Positions 11,842 through 57,171 of a stretch of 64,000 nt of DNA are shown in pieces. The notes below the pieces were generated by a model that was not told the DNA's origin, did not search any database, and was given only the letters and a program-made list of their open reading frames with translations. The translations under genes were made by a program, and so were the position numbers. This stretch comes from Rhabditophanes sp. KR3021 (lineage: Eukaryota; Nematoda; Chromadorea; Rhabditida; Alloionematidae). Each line of letters begins with the position of its first letter. Position 1 is the first letter of the stretch. The stretch spans positions 2,976,001 to 3,040,000 of the forward strand of contig CAUJLY010000002.1 of assembly GCA_963281155.1 (NCBI GenBank), written 5' to 3'.

Positions 11842-14800
11842 TTACTTTTTCTTAACAAGCATTAGTGGGTAAACTTTGGTTTCAAGATGCTAAAAAGTAA
11901 GATTAAAAAGAAGTTTTTAATAAAGATATTACCTCAAAGAAACGACTTAATTCTCCATCACTTTGTCTTACAATTACTCGATGTTTCAAAGGAAAATTTG
12001 ATTTTTTGTTAGATAAATACGATTGATAATGGACTTGATAAATTTGATCAAATGTAATACCTGTAGTATTATTTTTCAAATATTCAATAGAATCTTCGTT
12101 ACAAAACGGAATAGAATCAGTTATGAAGGTTGCCAGATTCGTTGAATGGTATTGGTGTCCTAATAATCGGTGTAATCCATGAATTTCCTTTATAATTGCT
12201 GATTTAAAAGGCAAATCTTCTTTTTTAAGAATGATGGCTGCAACATCAAGTCTAAAACGTTCATAATTTCCAACCATGGGTCTGAATAATTGGTCATATA
12301 GTTTACGATAATTGAATGTAGTTCTGTTGGCGTTGATCCCAGGAGTGTCTATCACTTTAAGTCTATATTTTAAACATGAATTATTAAACTCGTATATTGT
12401 GATGTGCTTTGTTGGCTTCAAATTATCATGATCATGCAAAAGAAAACGTATTTCGCTGTCAGGATTAGATCCATACAAGAAATTACAGATGCTGTTAATG
12501 AATGAGGTCTTACCACTGTTTGAAGGGCCAAACAAAACTATAGTTCTATCATCCAATGTTGATCCTTGTTGGCCACCAACTTTCAAAATATTTAATCCTG
12601 TGAGTGGGCAAACGTTATGTTCTGAAACGAATGGCTTGAAAAGCATTAATGAATTGTCATGAGTAAGGAAATGAGCCCCATTCTTAAGTTGATGAATTGA
12701 AGTATCCGAAAAATGTTTGTAATTTGCCGCGAATATTTGGTAATTTAAATCCTTTGTAGAATCATCATGACGAGGTGTTTTCATCCCTTCACTTCGAACA
12801 ACATTTTTTTTGTCAACAGAAGTATGATTTACAACTTTACTTTCAAATGCTTTTTTCCCATCAAGATTATCACGAATTACTTCCTCAGCATTATTTTTGT
12901 ACGTATCTACAATATTGTGATTTAATCTAGTGTGAAGATTTTGGACACAATTATCATCTTTGGGGTTTTTTTTGCTTGCTTTATCATTTGCATGGTTAAC
13001 TTTGGAAATTTTACCTTCGCTCAAAAATAGTTTATCAGATTCTTTAACCGGAGTTTGGAATTGTTCTTTGACGTATGAATCACATTTGGCGCCGTCTGAA
13101 TTTGATGAAATAAACTTTTTTTCAATTGTAGTTTCATAATTTTTACCATTAGTGCTCTTTTCATTTTTAATCACTGACTTGGTATATTCTTGCCTGTGTT
13201 TGGTTTTCTTGGGAACTTGATCATTGCACTGTTTACATGCTGCTTTGCAAACTACGAAAATAAATAAATTACTCAAATTATTTTACACAAAAGTAAATGT
13301 ATTATTGCTCATAAAACACGAATTTACACAAATATATTACTCATCAAAGAATAAACTCACTCTTGCATTCTTCACTTTTTGCTTGACTATCAACTTTTTC
13401 TAGTTTATTATTTTTTATACGAGCCCCAATTTGCACGCCATCAGCTTTGTCATTAACTCGGTTGTCGGTATAATGTAATACACTACGAGAGTTAAGTTTT
13501 TCATAATCAGTTTCCGTGTGTATTTTCTTATCTTTACTATCAAATTGTTGGCTATCATCAACGGAAATGATTGTTTTATGTGCGTTTTCATCTCTAGTAA
13601 GCTTAGTAGGATTGTTATCACCACTATTACGTGTAATGTCTTTTGGAATCAAACCGACTTGTTTATGATTATGTTTAATGTCATGAAGCGGAGCACTTGA
13701 TGTTGTCAAATCATAGTGCAAAGGCATCGTTGTTTGTTGATATGATGGCAGGTTAGAAAATTCCAAGCCACTTGTGTCACAATTAACAATCACACGACTC
13801 ACATTTTTTTCAGCGTCATGGAAAACATAATTATTAGGGGTATTTTGAACTTCATTGGTTGTTGAATGGCGTACTTCCTTTATTACCTGCTTTTGACGCT
13901 CTTCTTTGGGGTGCTCTTCTTCCTTAGATTTCTCATGATCATCTTTGTGTCCTTTTCCAAAAACACCTAAAACAGTATCTAATAAAGATCCTCTCCTTGC
14001 TTTACTGTCTTTTTCATGTTCAGTTACATTTTTCTTACCAACATAGTCAGTTCCATCTTTGTGTGGATCTTGTTCAGTATCTTTATGATCTTGTTCATCG
14101 TGTTTATTACGATTAAATAACACATCAATTAAAGAACCACGACGTTGAGTAGGTTCTTCAGCAATCATAGAAGCTCTTCTTTCTTCTCTACGTTTTTCAC
14201 TTAAGTCATGCAAAATTCTTGCCTGGACATCTCTCTTTTCATAAGTTGGAACGAATTCAGTTTGATCAAGTTCTTGTTCCTTCATTGTAAAATGGAGAAT
14301 GTTACTTTTTCCTTGATTAAAGTCAAAATGTTGTTTGCTTTTGTCGTGTTTAAAAAACTTTTCCAAAAGAGATGGTCTTCGTTCTTTGTTATGCATATCT
14401 TTTGGTTCTTCCTGTTCACCGGAACCAATCAATTTTCCGAACAATGATCCTCTTTTTTCAGAATCATGATTTTTCTTTGAATCAGAAACCCTTTTGTCAT
14501 GTTCGACTTCGTTGTTTTTAAAAATCAAATCTAAGTAATTGACAGGAGGTACAGCTTTATTCGGAATTTGTCCTTCTCCAGAAGCAGTATAATTGATAGA
14601 AGAACTGTGATATCCATTCCTTACATAGTGATCATCTTTGAAAGACGCATGTTTGATTAATTTTTCTTTTAGTACAGGAATGTCCTCACCAGTATGAATG
14701 GCTTCTTCTAAAGCATTGGAATGAAAAGCTACTAATTCCGTTTCTTTTGTAATCACATCTAAAAGTTTATTAATATTGAGCATTTTTGAATTATGCATAT

Positions 14801-15707
14801 GATTTACTTTAAAATTGGTTATTGTTTTTCATATTATTATATTTTTATTTAACTTGTGACGTGGCTGTGAGAAAGTATTAGCTCGCCACATTCTACTAGA
14901 GAATGTGAAGAATTGTGTATTGCGGAACTGAAGCACGATGTCAAGTTCAATGCCTCTAAATGTTTTGACAAAATTTAGCCAGAATGAAGAACTATTTCTA
15001 AGGAATACCAAGCCTACGTCTATTTTCTTATTGACTCAGCAAACGACGACAACATTCTTGCGCCTATGCAATCTTCAAGGGGATATTTTATGTCGGCGAA
15101 TCAGGGGGGTGATAAGATTAATCACCACTTCCTTACGTATAACGTTTACTAAATAATGTTGGTTTGTTTTTCCAGGAATGAGTCTAGAATGGTCAAGATC
15201 AAGAACCATCCAGCTGAAACCTCCTGTCTCTACTAAAGAACTGGCTGAAAGCTTGGAAGATTCAAGCGTCAGATCACCAACTGTGATCACGGCAAATACA
15301 TCATACCTGACGTCTATTTGCCGAATTCTGTGAATGCATGTGCAGTCGCCGACATCTTGACTGAAAAGATGTTTCAAGTGACGATGACTGGTAATGAGTA
15401 ATTTTAATAATATTTTAATTCCCTCGTTTGATTAGTTGGATTTTAATAAATACCTACCTAAAGGTTTGGGCGTATAATCATCTCCATCGACATCCCCTGA
15501 GTATTCGTATTCCATATACGATGAAGTGATATTAGGGACAGGGTCATTGTGTGCAACAATATCAGTAATTGCATTGTCAGCACGCTTGCGTTCCTCTACA
15601 CTCAAACTGTTATATCTAATTGGCTGAATGTGAACTTTATGAGTATTTTTGCCCTTAGTTCGACGCAAATTAGGTGTTTTTTGCTTTTTACTGCAACAAA
15701 AAGGCAT
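11842..15707 (-). CDS. Repeat-rich P-loop GTPase-domain protein (family copy 2)
   Basis: Four exons, 15458-15707, 13361-14758, 11933-13251 and 11842-11889, give 1004 residues with all phases consistent. The N-terminus MPFCCSKK is suited to palmitoylation (inference). Exon 2 carries four short repeats of the type [KR]RxSL plus a hydrophobic helix (RRGSLFGKL-like). A Cys cluster follows the second junction (CKAACKQC). GTPase motifs: P-loop GPSNSGKT (about 791-798), DTPG (about 851), FITDSIPF (about 925). The C-terminal exon of 16 codons reads HLETKVYPLMLVKKK, aligning with the ends of copies 1 and 3. Intron 1 (699 nt) carries an antisense GIY-YIG relic. A TTCTTAG acceptor lies 10 nt before the ATG. 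Role unknown. Confidence 0.8.
14880..15402 (+). pseudogene. Degenerate GIY-YIG endonuclease relic (copy 2), antisense in intron 1 of copy 2 gene
   Basis: Plus-strand coding segments fill most of the host intron 14759-15457. In order: CIAELKHDVKFNASKCFDKI; AYVYFLIDSAND at 15012-15047 (the GIY half); IFYVGES at 15083-15103 in another frame (the YIG half); DKINHHF from 15111, back in the first frame; ELAESLE near 15240 (the catalytic Glu helix); RFKRQITNCDHGK from 15258; and a C-terminal block ending in VNACAVADILTEK with TAA at 15402. The order GIY, YIG, R/H, E, TN..G is that of the LEM-3/ANKLE1-like (COG3680) GIY-YIG group, from family knowledge. Several frameshifts and stops make it a pseudogene. 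An AATAAA lies just after the stop. Confidence 0.65.
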
Positions 15708-51599: not shown

Positions 51600-54500
51600 T
51601 TAATTCAAAACTAAGAAATATGTTTTCATTAATCCTTTGCCTTTCACGTTTATGTTGCCCCTACATTCAAACTCAAACCCATCGTTTTCTAGTAATTGTT
51701 TTACCTCCTCCGTCACTTGAATCCGTCCTGGAATTCCTGAGCTATCCATTCTTCTAAAAAAGCAAGAATGAATATTTGGTAAAAGATTTCCAATCATTTA
51801 AATTTGATAAAAGATTTTCAATCATTTGAATTTTATAAAGGATATTTTTATGAACTTACGATGCTACATTTACTGTGTTCCCCCACACATCATAGTGCGG
51901 CTTTTCCATTCCGATGACACCGGCCACCACATGTCCAATTGATATCCCAATACGAAGTTTGAAGTTGTTAAAAGAGTGTTCATTAATAAAATCAAGTTTC
52001 TGCAATAATTCAATAGCAAACTTAATAACCGCTACAACGTGTGTATTTCCATTTGTATTGCCATACAATCCACTTGCAGCCATATAGGTTGTCGATATTG
52101 TTTTGATTTTTTCAATACAACTGAATTCCGGCTTGTTTAATAATTGATCAAAATCAACAATTATCTCATTCAACAGACGTAAGCATTCGACTCCTTCATT
52201 GTTAGCATCAAGTTCCATATAAAACTTGTCAAATTCGGTTATAGTTGCAAATATTATGCATGCGAAATCTCTGGCTTCACTGTAAAGTTCACTTCTGCGA
52301 TTAGGAAGTCTTGTCAAAAAATGATTGGCAACATGGGCTGAAAAAGATGCTAGTTAAATAATGTATTAGACTGTCGGTGATTCTAAGAGAGATGATGGAA
52401 TCAACCATCACTTCAGCAACTTCAATATTACTCTAAAGAATGGTTATTTATTCGGTCGAAGGGAGTCTAAAATGGACAATCAGGAACTATCCAGCCAAAA
52501 CTCTCACCTTAAGCTTCCAGTTCCTACTCAAGAGTTAGCCGAAGACTTAGAATTCATCTTAGTCGAAAGATTCAAGAGGCAGACCCCCAACTGTGGCTAC
52601 GGAAAATGTACTATGCTTGAAGTTTACCTTCTAAACCATGTCAATGTCTGTGCTGTTGCTGACATCTTGGTCAAAATGATGTTTGATCTTAAGATGGCTT
52701 TTGATATTTAATTTACGTTTTTGTCTCTACTTTTAATTTTAATAAATTCTGTTTACCTGGCAAGATATTTTCTAATACTTTTCTATTCTGCAAATGTCTT
52801 TTCTCCATTTCCGTTTTCTCGTCAATAGCTTGAAGCTTCCAAATGAAATCGTATCTTGCTATTAATTCTGACCTTCGACTTTGTAAGCTAATTAGCACTA
52901 CAGCAATGAGAATCAGGAATGTAAATGATAACTTAAGGAAACTGTCCGTTGCATTAGCTTCAGCACAATATTTGAGCAAGTCAGGGAAGGGTGCAAACCA
53001 AACGGCGAGAAGGCAACTGATGCAAATAAATATTGTAATTAACATTTTTTCAACTGCTAACAAGGACATAAATACACAAACTGATAACATGATGAGCAAA
53101 ATACAATCTACGATAATTTCTATTGGTAGATGGCCAAATGTATTTACTGAATCACATTTAGATAATTGCAAGATGGTTGTTGAGTTTTCAATTAGTGTCT
53201 CAAGTTTAGGTTCGCATCGGAAATGACACTCACTAATTGGGTCTATGAAGAATTGTAGAAATATAAAATACGTGAATAAGCAAAATATTCCAAGTATGAA
53301 AATAAATTTGTAAAAGCGGCTTAGAGTATATGGCTTCCGTTGACGAGTCTGCAATTAATTAAAAGTGAATATATTTTGCAAACTTTTAAAAACTCACTAG
53401 AAATGATTTCAGTACCAAGTACGCTACGACAATTATAATTACACAAACTGAAAATAGCCCGGAAATAGCCAATGAATGGTTGTACAAACCCCCAATACAA
53501 AGTACACCTGTTGCAAGAGCAAATATCATTAAGGCACACGATATTTGACCTAGAACAGAGTTTTCTTTGTAACGTAAAAACTTTTCTTCCATCTTCGATT
53601 TCTTAAAAATCAGAGTGCCAGGGGAGCAATACAATTGTTTCCATGTTTCTTTGTTGATTGCTTGGATACCCTTTAAAACGATAGATTACAACTTTTATAA
53701 AAAATGAATTTTATAATATATCGGTGTTTAATGAAGCTTAAGATCAACTACATAGATGCTAATATTACACAAATAAAATGTTTTTTGAAAATCAAAAAAT
53801 AAACTACGAGGATTTAATAAATCATTTTTTGTATACTTAAATGACTACTCATTCATTTTACACCGAATATAACTAATTATTTATGTACAGCTTAATTACC
53901 TGCATTAAATAATTCTCGACTTCTTCTTCTATATCTACCACTCTAGTAGCACCAGGTTTTGAATCAAATCCGGCTAAACCAAATATTTTCTTAGAAACCG
54001 GCGCGACATATGTTTGATGAGCTTGTAATTTAGGATTTTCTTCGGCAACAACGAAGTATGTTTTGACATTATGCGTCGCTAAATAATTAGACCTAGTTTC
54101 ACCATACCCAGGTTCAACTTTATAATTATTACCTAGGGCTAATAATGTTGCTTCCGTAATGTGAATTCTCCCTGGTAGCCCCCCACTCTCCATGTGATTC
54201 GCAAGCGTGGTGTCACTCGACCTGCAAGCAAAAATAAAGATATAAATAAATATCAGCAAAGAAGAATTCATCAAATCTTTCTACGTACCATACATCAAAC
54301 TGCCACTTCTTTAATCCCAAAATACCACATTGTGCTTTACCCTAAACAAACATTCAAATCTGAATATAATTTTAAACGAATTACCGAATGAACACCAATG
54401 CGCATGTTAACGTCGACCCCATGAAGTTCTCTAACTAATTTGATTGCATCTATCATTTCAAAACCCATTTGGACGGCACATACTGCGTGATCGTCTCTCC

Positions 54501-57171
54501 GTTCCGGCAGTCCACTCACGCAGTAGTAGCAATCTTCAAAATTGTTATTATTATTTTAATAAAATCAAGAATTGTTTACCTCCCAGGATCTTTATGCGCA
54601 TGCAGTGGTTCTGATGTGCTATTTCGTCGAATCTGAATGAAAAAATATTATTTATTCATTAATTTTAAATTATTTGCTTTTTGTTTATTTACCTTGCAAA
54701 TAATTCATTTAAAGTTCTAACTAAATCCTCTGCTGAACATTCTGAAGCCAAATTTGTGAAACCACAAATATCCGCAAATAAGATCTGCAAAATATATTTT
54801 ATACTTATTAAAATCAACATACACTTATGTTTTCATGCTTTCTGATATAGATCTTGTGAAACATTTTGTCAGTTTGATCACTTTCGTTGAAATCTTTCTT
54901 CATTTCATGAGCTATATGTTTTGGGATGACCTTCAGTGATATTTTATTAAAATAGGTGTTTAAATGTGTTTTTTGAATAAATTTTTGGTCAAATTATATA
55001 CATACCAACCTTTGCTGTAAGGCTTTTTAAATTTAAATATCAGCTAAAACTACTTAATGTCACTACAATAATGTGAATTGTACGTAAAGATTTAAGATCT
55101 TTCGCCGTGTTTGAAGACTTTGCCTTTCAACATGTTTAAAACCCTTCTCTTAGGAATAATTAATTAGAGCTGACTCATCAACTTTTGATTACTTAATATT
55201 CAAATTTAATGCCTTCACAAGCTCTTCTAATAATTTACCCATTCATTTTCTTTATACTCTTAGTAGATATTTAATGCCACGTTTTGTTTTAGGTCCTAAA
55301 CGACTTTAAACAAACTGTATTAGATCGTCTTCTTGCCAATTCGTATCTCCTTTTAACACAGTCACTAAGTAATTGCCTTACACACACTTAAATTATTTTA
55401 CTTATTGTTTAATATTCTCTTGCAATAACTTTTAATTATTTTTAGTACCAAGATCTTCTCAATTGGAGTTTATTAATTTAAGATGGCAAAAAAAGAAGGC
55501 ATCAAGAGAGTGGCTACAGAGATTACCCGTATGATGAAAAATGCCAGTATCAAAGAGGTTAGCCAAGAAAGTTTTCCAAGGTTGAAGGTGGTTTCCTTTT
55601 GTCAAGATGTAATGCAGATTTGCACCAAGAACCACTGCTGTCAACAAAGCCTACATATATTTTTCTGGATCCAGAGCTACTGGAAAAGTGTTGACTGAAG
55701 ACAACGTATCTGATGACTTTGACTTGCTTGAGAAATCAATCTTTTACGTGCGAATCTGAAAAAGATGATAGACTAGATTCGCACTATTACAAATTCAAAT
55801 CTCAGTTGGAAGGAAACGATCTATTCGATAGGAAGGAAATGAGAATGCCGAAATCATCAAGGCTGGATTTGAAATGATTGTCGTTATGGTGCCTGTCAGT
55901 TCTAAAGTAATTACTGAGAACCTCGAGTTCATTCTCATGGAACGTTACAAGTGGCGAATCACGAACTGTAATCATGACAAGTGTTCTATGAAACAAACCT
56001 GCCTCCTCAATTCAATCAACGCCTGTGCAATTGTTGATACCAAATTTTAAATTATTATCTTTTATAGTTTTTTAATTGACTATTTTTTATAAACTTTTTT
56101 AACTTCGTTCCATAAATTACCTAAAATAACAAAAAATTAGTTAAGGTCATTAAAGAGATCGTCACCGAAAGTAAAATATTTTCTTGTTTTTCATTTTCTT
56201 GAACTAGTGCCATCCTCGACTCAACACATTTTCTAGTTTCTCTAAATGTTTTTCTTTGCACAAGCTCGATCGGATAATAAACAAATATTCCGATGATATT
56301 CATAGCAAGAAGCAGAAGGAATTCAGCTATCAAGCTTCGTAGATCTGTAAAGTGCAGGTAATGTGTTACAACAGTAATTATTGTCAACACAGAGGCAGCC
56401 AATATTGAAGGTCTTAATTGAAGTGGTAGTAGTGTATAACAAATAAATAGAAGTAATAATGACATGCAGGAATGCAACAAGATCGGTATTGTTCCAAGCA
56501 AAATTGAACTGGTTGCCACTATCAGAATTGAGATCACAACGGCATTCGACTTCGTAAGACAACATGACACAAATAATATCAGTGATATTGTACTCAAAAT
56601 TATAAACTTGATCCAATCGTTGTTAATAAAATGTAAAGTCAGGCCAAAGAAGCATAACGTCAAAACACAAGTGAGAGCTGGCTAAAAGCAAAATAAATTT
56701 TATGATATTCATAAATCATTTATGTTTTAAACTGAGATGTAATAGATCATTTTTGACTTTTTGAATCATCAACTACTTCACCTTTAATCATCAATTTTTT
56801 TCAACCTTAATCAACTATTTTTTTATCGAATTCCAGTGTTCCGTTAATTCGTGACTGCTATTATACGCTTTAAATATGCAATTCATTGTAAACAATGTTT
56901 AAAAATAACCATTAATCTCCAAATATAATTTTTAATTTCCAAATTGAATGCAAAAAACAATTTTAAAAACATGATTTACCTTAAGCCTTCCTCCGTTCAT
57001 ATGGTTAAAGTATTCAGGATACAAATTATCGTGATGACACAACTGAAATGCTAATGACTCCGATTCTACGTCTGCATCTATAGTATCCAAAATTTGAGAA
57101 TCTGTGATTCCCGACCTATTCCAATTGTTTTGTAATGGTTCCAAGACAGACGAGTCCTTAGGAAAACCCAT
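51600..57171 (-). CDS. Transmembrane adenylyl cyclase
   Basis: Twelve exons (56980-57171, 56166-56681, 54823-54930, 54693-54784, 54580-54632, 54385-54533, 54289-54341, 53900-54221, 53398-53670, 52757-53348, 51860-52337, 51600-51753) join in frame to 993 residues. The N-terminal tail and first membrane cluster (about 65-215) precede C1: [20 protein letters not shown] and [12 protein letters not shown] with the two metal Asp, and [11 protein letters not shown]. The second membrane cluster (about 520-690) precedes C2: [25 protein letters not shown] and [18 protein letters not shown]. The Lys and Asp in C2 fix ATP rather than GTP. It converts ATP to cAMP at the plasma membrane, usually under G-protein control. 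The introns between exons 2/3 and 10/11 carry antisense GIY-YIG relics. Confidence 0.95.
52340..52711 (+). pseudogene. GIY-YIG endonuclease 3' half (copy 4) forming almost a whole cyclase intron
   Basis: Cyclase intron 52338-52756 (419 nt) is nearly filled by one plus-strand open frame, 52370-52711, the best preserved relic. It reads [19 protein letters not shown] (YIG strand end and R/H cluster), a variable loop, [18 protein letters not shown] (catalytic Glu helix), NCGYGKC, then a C-terminal block ending in [12 protein letters not shown]. The N-terminal GIY strand and the start are absent; the only late ATG is 52472. TTTTAATAAAT follows the stop, close to the host donor. The 52472 ATG alone would make a 79-residue fragment. 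Confidence 0.65.
55441..56049 (+). pseudogene. GIY-YIG endonuclease relic (copy 5), antisense in cyclase intron
   Basis: Lies in cyclase intron 54931-56165 (1235 nt). The open frame 55483-55698 starts [16 protein letters not shown]. In a second frame, KAYIYF near 55650 is the GIY strand and SIFYV near 55738 the YIG strand; shifting again, [20 protein letters not shown] supplies the R/H helix, then [39 protein letters not shown] (catalytic Glu helix and TN), and SINACAIVD before a TAA at 56049. This is the longest copy and shows the domain order most completely, but with several stops and frameshifts. Confidence 0.65.

Follow-up and report, generated by a model that had tools for sequence, protein, structure and literature searches.

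How a predicted spliceosomal intron of a cyclase gene came to consist almost entirely of a reading frame on the opposite strand, one with the features of a decayed nuclease gene, is the question raised by this locus of the nematode Rhabditophanes sp. KR3021. Within the 64,000-nucleotide stretch of DNA that was analyzed (the window), the host adenylate/guanylate cyclase gene lies on the minus strand and is interrupted by a predicted spliceosomal intron of 419 nt (52338–52756, minus strand), which splice-junction scoring delimits with the good predicted sites CCAG|GTAAAC and TTTTTCAG|CCC. Predicted splicing yields the in-frame product ...VLENILP-A-HVANHFL..., with the intron in phase 1, and the exon frame downstream of it matches Guanylate_cyc (PF00211). 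Nearly all of this intron is occupied by an element antisense to the host, including a plus-strand frame of 113 codons running from stop to stop (52370–52711). The initial annotation had drawn attention to this frame nearly filling the intron, and in this respect it was correct, as the translated open reading frame, the splice sites and the in-frame spliced product all agree.

Read on the plus strand, the element starts with the 5′ terminus CTAGTTAAATAATGTATTAG (52350–52369), about 20 nt that by eye resemble the main form of the 5′ end shared by other copies, TTAGTTAAATATTGTATTA. On the host strand the same bases read TTTAACTA, a branch-point-like motif close to the acceptor, and they may serve as the branch point of the cyclase intron. 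The following frame (52370–52711, plus strand, with the stop codon TAA at 52709–52711) corresponds to the decayed C-terminal part of a GIY-YIG-domain ORF; it begins downstream of the first GIY strand and has suffered two small deletions, of 2 nt and 1 nt. Next come the element 3′ UTR and 3′ end (52712–52746, plus strand), with AATAAA at 52741–52746 and no poly(A) tail after it, in keeping with the 3′ end common to the copies (stop, short UTR, TTTTAATTTTAATAAA). The residual bases (52747–52756, minus strand) contain the host 5′ splice site GTAAACAG, and such bases vary among copies. A YVG-like strand end and an R..INHH cluster had also been reported for the frame. The Tyr of Y-V-G is indeed present in most of the family (29 of 38 copies), whereas the window copy has T at this position; the R assigned to the cluster is not the catalytic Arg, since the window copy carries Gly at that site, just before I-N-H-H, where 26 of the 38 copies have Arg (consensus K-D-D-R-I). 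Judged by its sequence, the window copy is a remnant that is internally deleted and has no predicted intact nuclease ORF.

The assignment to the GIY-YIG nucleases, likewise proposed at the outset, received no Pfam support from the window copy by itself but found support elsewhere in the family. The 113-aa translation of 52370–52711 alone matched no Pfam family, whereas the ORF of the better-preserved copy L025 matches the C-terminal domain LEM-3_GIY-YIG (PF22945) at 23.1 bits (E 8.1e-5), under the curated cut-off of 27. This domain was matched by 2 of 7 family members. L051, which has the family 3′ terminal motif and an antisense placement, exceeds the cut-off of PF01541 (22.6 bits) with a score of 26.9. 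L046, L049, L052 and L053 exceed it too, and by eye L049 and L052 look antisense-placed as well. A BLASTP comparison of L025 with a LEM-3-like domain from the same genome gave a 33-residue alignment (E 0.003). The best PDB match of L025, a GIY-YIG protein aligned over F-Y-V-G..R..H, was not significant (E 0.16), the family profile had no matches in the PDB, and an AlphaFold model built from 6 sequences was uninformative (pLDDT 38). At the level of the family, the motif order GIY..YIG, Arg, His, Glu, Asn is present, and besides the Tyr and Arg already mentioned the residues are kept in 25 (Gly), 28 (His), 33 (Glu) and 33 (Asn) of the 38 copies. Diversity at codon positions 1, 2 and 3 was 0.18, 0.15 and 0.36 over 60 conserved codons of the 38 aligned copies, with 0.365 in the 3′ UTR, and dN/dS over the conserved coding part of these copies was 0.18, indicative of purifying selection. 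Source copies therefore encoded a functional protein over a long time, even if stops are now present in many copies. Taken together, the data support the view that predicted introns of this family encode a putative homing-type GIY-YIG endonuclease. Elsewhere in the genome, a LEM-3-like GIY-YIG match (C3:1774619–1775038) and a reverse transcriptase match (C3:1777376–1777858) share a strand and are about 2.3 kb apart, a proximity that may be coincidence, and further LEM-3-like GIY-YIG matches occur near one end of contig C6 (4280–4693, 74913–75203, 165721–166011 and 278436–278666).

The intron at 52338–52756 belongs to a dispersed repeat family of Rhabditophanes sp. KR3021 (Alloionematidae, Strongyloidoidea). 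Its sequence has at least 39 other matches at 70–80% identity in the 44.8-Mb, six-contig genome (40 including the window scored, of 82 candidates), and protein searches gave at least 157 matches with a better-preserved copy (150 of 379 candidates scored) and at least 151 with another family member (150 of 542 scored); all of these counts are minimum values, and some copies account for more than one match. The 38 loci used for the family-wide counts were those most similar in DNA sequence to the window copy, a biased choice. Although contig C6 makes up a quarter of the genome (11.2 of 44.8 Mb), just 1 of the 40 scored DNA matches falls on it; this contig may be a sex chromosome or may be protected in some other way. 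No relatives outside Rhabditophanes were found in a search of 5.8 billion proteins that depends on shared 5-residue words, the matches (5 of 21 and 6 of 802 candidates) coming only from Rhabditophanes sp. KR3021. Likewise, no relative was confirmed in viral contigs, where 20 stretches fitted a pattern, and phage matches were not significant (best E 0.5). One UniRef protein of this species (P0003) equals locus L017 minus its predicted introns, as read by eye. Five other UniRef entries of the species with unrelated names, P0002, P0004, P0005, P0006 and P0007 (SHSP, TSSC4, ACT, TFIIS and DSPn), include pieces of the element, and the gene models there may therefore be element fragments.

Longer copies have a 5′ UTR and their own predicted introns, and they encode an N-terminal region with no known domain, two C2HC-type fingers (C-x2-C-x12-H-x5-C, twice, as read by eye from L010) and the C-terminal GIY-YIG domain. 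A GIY-YIG domain at the C-terminus, a common 3′ end and many short copies are also what would be seen if a retroelement, either Penelope-like with reverse transcriptase and GIY-YIG or moving as retroposed mRNAs, had left 5′-truncated copies in genes. We regard this as very improbable, for the short copies are not simply truncated. N-terminal pieces are present in 18 of the 38 loci, and several copies have N-terminal parts joined to C-terminal parts, so that many short copies are best described as internal deletions; a 5′ UTR profile matched 33 of the 38 loci (11 of these being its own training sequences), and 23 of the 33 matches start no later than model position 24. Such N-terminal parts and 5′ UTRs upstream of short copies rule out simple 5′-truncation of the LINE type. 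Poly(A)-tailed retrocopies are ruled out in turn, as no poly(A) was seen at the aligned 3′ ends of the copies; together with the first predicted element intron, which by eye is retained in about 10 of 14 aligned copies, the missing tails argue against a spliced mRNA intermediate. Pfam reverse transcriptase is moreover absent from the two long ORFs of L017, none of the 37 RVT_1 places that were found falls on one of the 40 DNA-match places, and the longest single copy (L037) measures just about 2.2 kb. With respect to the other ends and cores that were sought, the match between inverted termini did not reach significance (8 of 14 positions matching, p 0.10; terminal inverted repeats), and group I or II ribozyme cores gave no Rfam match in 52200–52900 of the window (E up to 10) and none at the gathering threshold in five loci. 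As a separate observation, nine matches to reverse transcriptase all score the same (E 3.9e-38) and have open frames of up to 1377 aa (L054–L061), which suggests a recently active retroelement.

Most sampled copies lie antisense between exons of unrelated genes, with ends 4–31 nt from predicted splice sites. The host genes encode the cyclase (PF00211), aconitase, glutamate dehydrogenase, galectin, peroxidase, RGS and other proteins, names that except for the cyclase were read from the spliced products. With a codon model whose training ORFs came from these loci and from the window, the sequence outside the 3′ end reached a coding score of at least 5 in 37 of 43 copies antisense to the element and in 8 of 43 in the sense direction, the antisense score being higher in 40, not better in 3, and short of 5 in 6. 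Outside the 5′ end the corresponding numbers were 24 and 4 of 34, with antisense higher in 30; random positions in the window served as control (26% on one side and 17.5% on both, n = 600). A donor-like ACYT was found at most 45 nt past the 3′ end in 36 of 43 copies, vs 42.5% in shuffles. Eight other loci were found through the GIY-YIG family PF01541, and L047–L052 among them look antisense by coding pattern, L046 and L053 being ambiguous (reading by eye). The family thus consists of similar sequences that occupy whole predicted introns of unrelated genes.

The copies are gene-like, with UTRs, introns, an ORF and AATAAA, and could for that reason be host genes nested in antisense that multiplied through ordinary duplication; similarity between copies, however, ends near the element ends, and the flanking exons read as different genes. 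That the ORF arose by chance in an intron rich in AT is excluded by the 40 DNA matches, the codon-position pattern and the dN/dS of 0.18, and we consider these two explanations, jointly, the least probable of those weighed here.

The window itself holds three family copies, all on the plus strand with their hosts on the minus strand. The second lies in a predicted intron of another minus-strand gene (14759–15457, minus strand; profile match 14864–15451, plus strand) with the junction CTTTAG|GTAGG / CTTTTAG|; the acceptor at 14759 scored second-best after 14807 and was preferred because it is located at the element 5′ end. The third is a partial copy, recognized by a profile match (55729–56039, plus strand), in a predicted 1235-nt intron (54931–56165, minus strand) between ENILLS and VIPKHIAHEM of what is apparently the same cyclase gene; its exon edges were set by eye, and the junction scan gave other acceptors. 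Each of the homologous cyclase-domain halves of this gene holds one of the two copies, at points that are close but not identical (ENILLS|VIPKHIA and ENILP|AHVA).

Whether such introns arose with the element or were there before it is the point on which the remaining alternative differs. It holds that the element inserted into pre-existing introns, that antisense copies survived selection, and that the old intron was later trimmed by deletion; a poly(A) signal, in whatever element, would itself lead one to expect an antisense bias. The bases left over between the splice sites and the terminal motifs bear on this directly. Both junctions could be placed in 23 of the 38 loci, and among 19 of these the leftovers had a median of 29 nt (11–47 nt). 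Native introns go down to 38 nt (crude set, n = 22), so the leftovers of 42–47 nt in 4 of the 19 are enough for a short native intron, but those in the other 15 are at most 37 nt. Furthermore, the joined flanking exons match paralogous places that are uninterrupted at the insertion site in 21 of 23 cases from four host families: 3 of 3 for the cyclase, 11 of 11 for the peroxidase (some with merely 6–7 residues before the junction), 4 of 5 for the galectin, where the fifth match falls short of the site, and 3 of 4 for RGS, where the fourth ends at the junction. For aconitase, no paralog match was found. Judged from these paralogs in the same genome, the introns appear to have been gained at their sites; intron loss is formally possible, because the paralogs are often distant. 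Random insertion would also predict many intergenic copies, a class that our sample was not built to count.

Duplications shared by the end of the upstream exon and the end of the intron provide a further line of evidence. They measure 8–18 nt in a few copies and are statistically modest overall, and some of them span the splice junctions themselves, which again speaks against insertion into older introns; all in all, we judge that alternative unlikely. Long examples are L036 (AATATTTCGCCAG|GTTC vs AATATTTCACCAG|GTTC), L022 (TTTTACAG|GTCT at both junctions), L027 (ATTTTTCAAG at both junctions) and, provided that its intron is GC-AG, L009 (CTTTCAARGCAA); L051 carries TTCTAG|GT at both junctions. 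The junction test took the 23 placed loci and 4 of the 8 PF01541 loci. Left out, as one or both junctions were unplaceable, were L016, L017, L018, L020, L021, L023, L025, L028, L030, L032, L033, L035, L038, L040 and L044, and among the PF01541 loci L046, L048, L052 and L053. With a preset interval, the 27 placed junctions gave p = 0.039, and 30 loci searched freely gave p = 0.0105. Most copies show no clear duplication, and junctions were set partly by eye with both sides visible, which may favor the duplication result. At junction positions −4 and −3, picked after inspection of the profile, 32 of 54 bases match where 15.8 would be expected, a result reached in 0 of 20000 permutations. The bases adjoining GT and AG vary among copies, so that the splice sites are probably target-derived, and the same variation disfavors copying of an intron lariat. 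The earlier suggestion that the element created or occupied the intron is supported by the antisense placement in unrelated genes, the small leftovers, the junction duplications and the uninterrupted paralogs.

We consider it likely that Rhabditophanes sp. KR3021 harbors an introner with an antisense GIY-YIG nuclease gene of its own, of which the cyclase intron, with its predicted splicing, is a dead, internally deleted copy. In the process that we propose, the product of the gene carried antisense to the host would combine two C2HC-type fingers with a LEM-3-like GIY-YIG nuclease domain. The element would enter exons as DNA, at or beside AG|GT-like sites, and a short target stretch would be duplicated on insertion, with GT and AG supplied by the target. 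On the host strand, the element 5′ end TTTAACTAA would provide the branch site, and the spliceosome of the host would excise the entire element, which would therefore be nearly silent for the host. The antisense orientation would shield the host transcript from the AATAAA and the introns of the element. The target cut may be made by the encoded GIY-YIG protein, alone or together with another enzyme. That the family is an autonomous introner of an animal nucleus, whose own zinc-finger GIY-YIG protein is the transposase that cuts AG|GT-like exon sites and so makes spliceosomal introns, is a tentative proposal, conceivable but on balance doubtful.

The origin of spliceosomal introns and the mobilizer of introners are open questions. 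If our reading is correct, a constrained nuclease gene in introns of a free-living animal with a compact genome would make intron birth testable in one system, from cut site, duplication and splicing to insertion. An autonomous introner, if real, would define a transposable element class of its own, new to science. As a cellular analog of homing introns that disperses, it would directly bridge homing endonucleases and spliceosomal intron gain.

Several known systems share part of these features. Penelope-like elements have a C-terminal GIY-YIG domain and keep introns, as the Rhabditophanes family does, but reverse transcriptase was not found in the long ORFs of the family that were searched. 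LEM-3-like GIY-YIG proteins (PF22945) have the domain and the order of catalytic motifs in common with the family, whereas the Rhabditophanes copies are dispersed, mostly broken, joined to C2HC-type fingers and score under the cut-off. Introners, or introner-like elements, are reportedly the subject of Huff et al. 2016; their splice sites arise in part when the target is duplicated at AG|GT-like sites. In a 2022 survey, introners are similar sequences that form whole introns in unrelated genes, as in Rhabditophanes, and transposase-encoding elements were sought as candidate mobilizers; nematodes, endonucleases and the word antisense do not occur in its main text (PMC9860276). The present family differs in its own, decayed nuclease gene, its antisense orientation and its nematode host. 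A paper on intron gain in nematodes does not mention Rhabditophanes (PMC9169325), and no report of a Rhabditophanes GIY-YIG intron family was found among the matches listed (the best 10 of 97 and 12 of 515, by titles and abstract openings, with most subscription papers outside this scope). The shintrons of mirusviruses are described in a 2025 paper as spliceosomal homing introns with GIY-YIG or HNH endonuclease genes, and its authors note that eukaryotic genomes apparently lack equivalents of such nuclease-bearing introns (PMC12768974). Shintrons and the predicted Rhabditophanes introns are alike in that a spliceosomal intron bears a GIY-YIG endonuclease gene. Shintrons, however, are viral and gene-specific, whereas the Rhabditophanes family resides in an animal nuclear genome, antisense and with short duplications, in genes as unrelated as those for the cyclase, aconitase, glutamate dehydrogenase, galectin, peroxidase and RGS, without site-specific homing or specificity for a target gene. 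Among the systems compared here, the mirusvirus shintron is the nearest relative in kind of the Rhabditophanes family.
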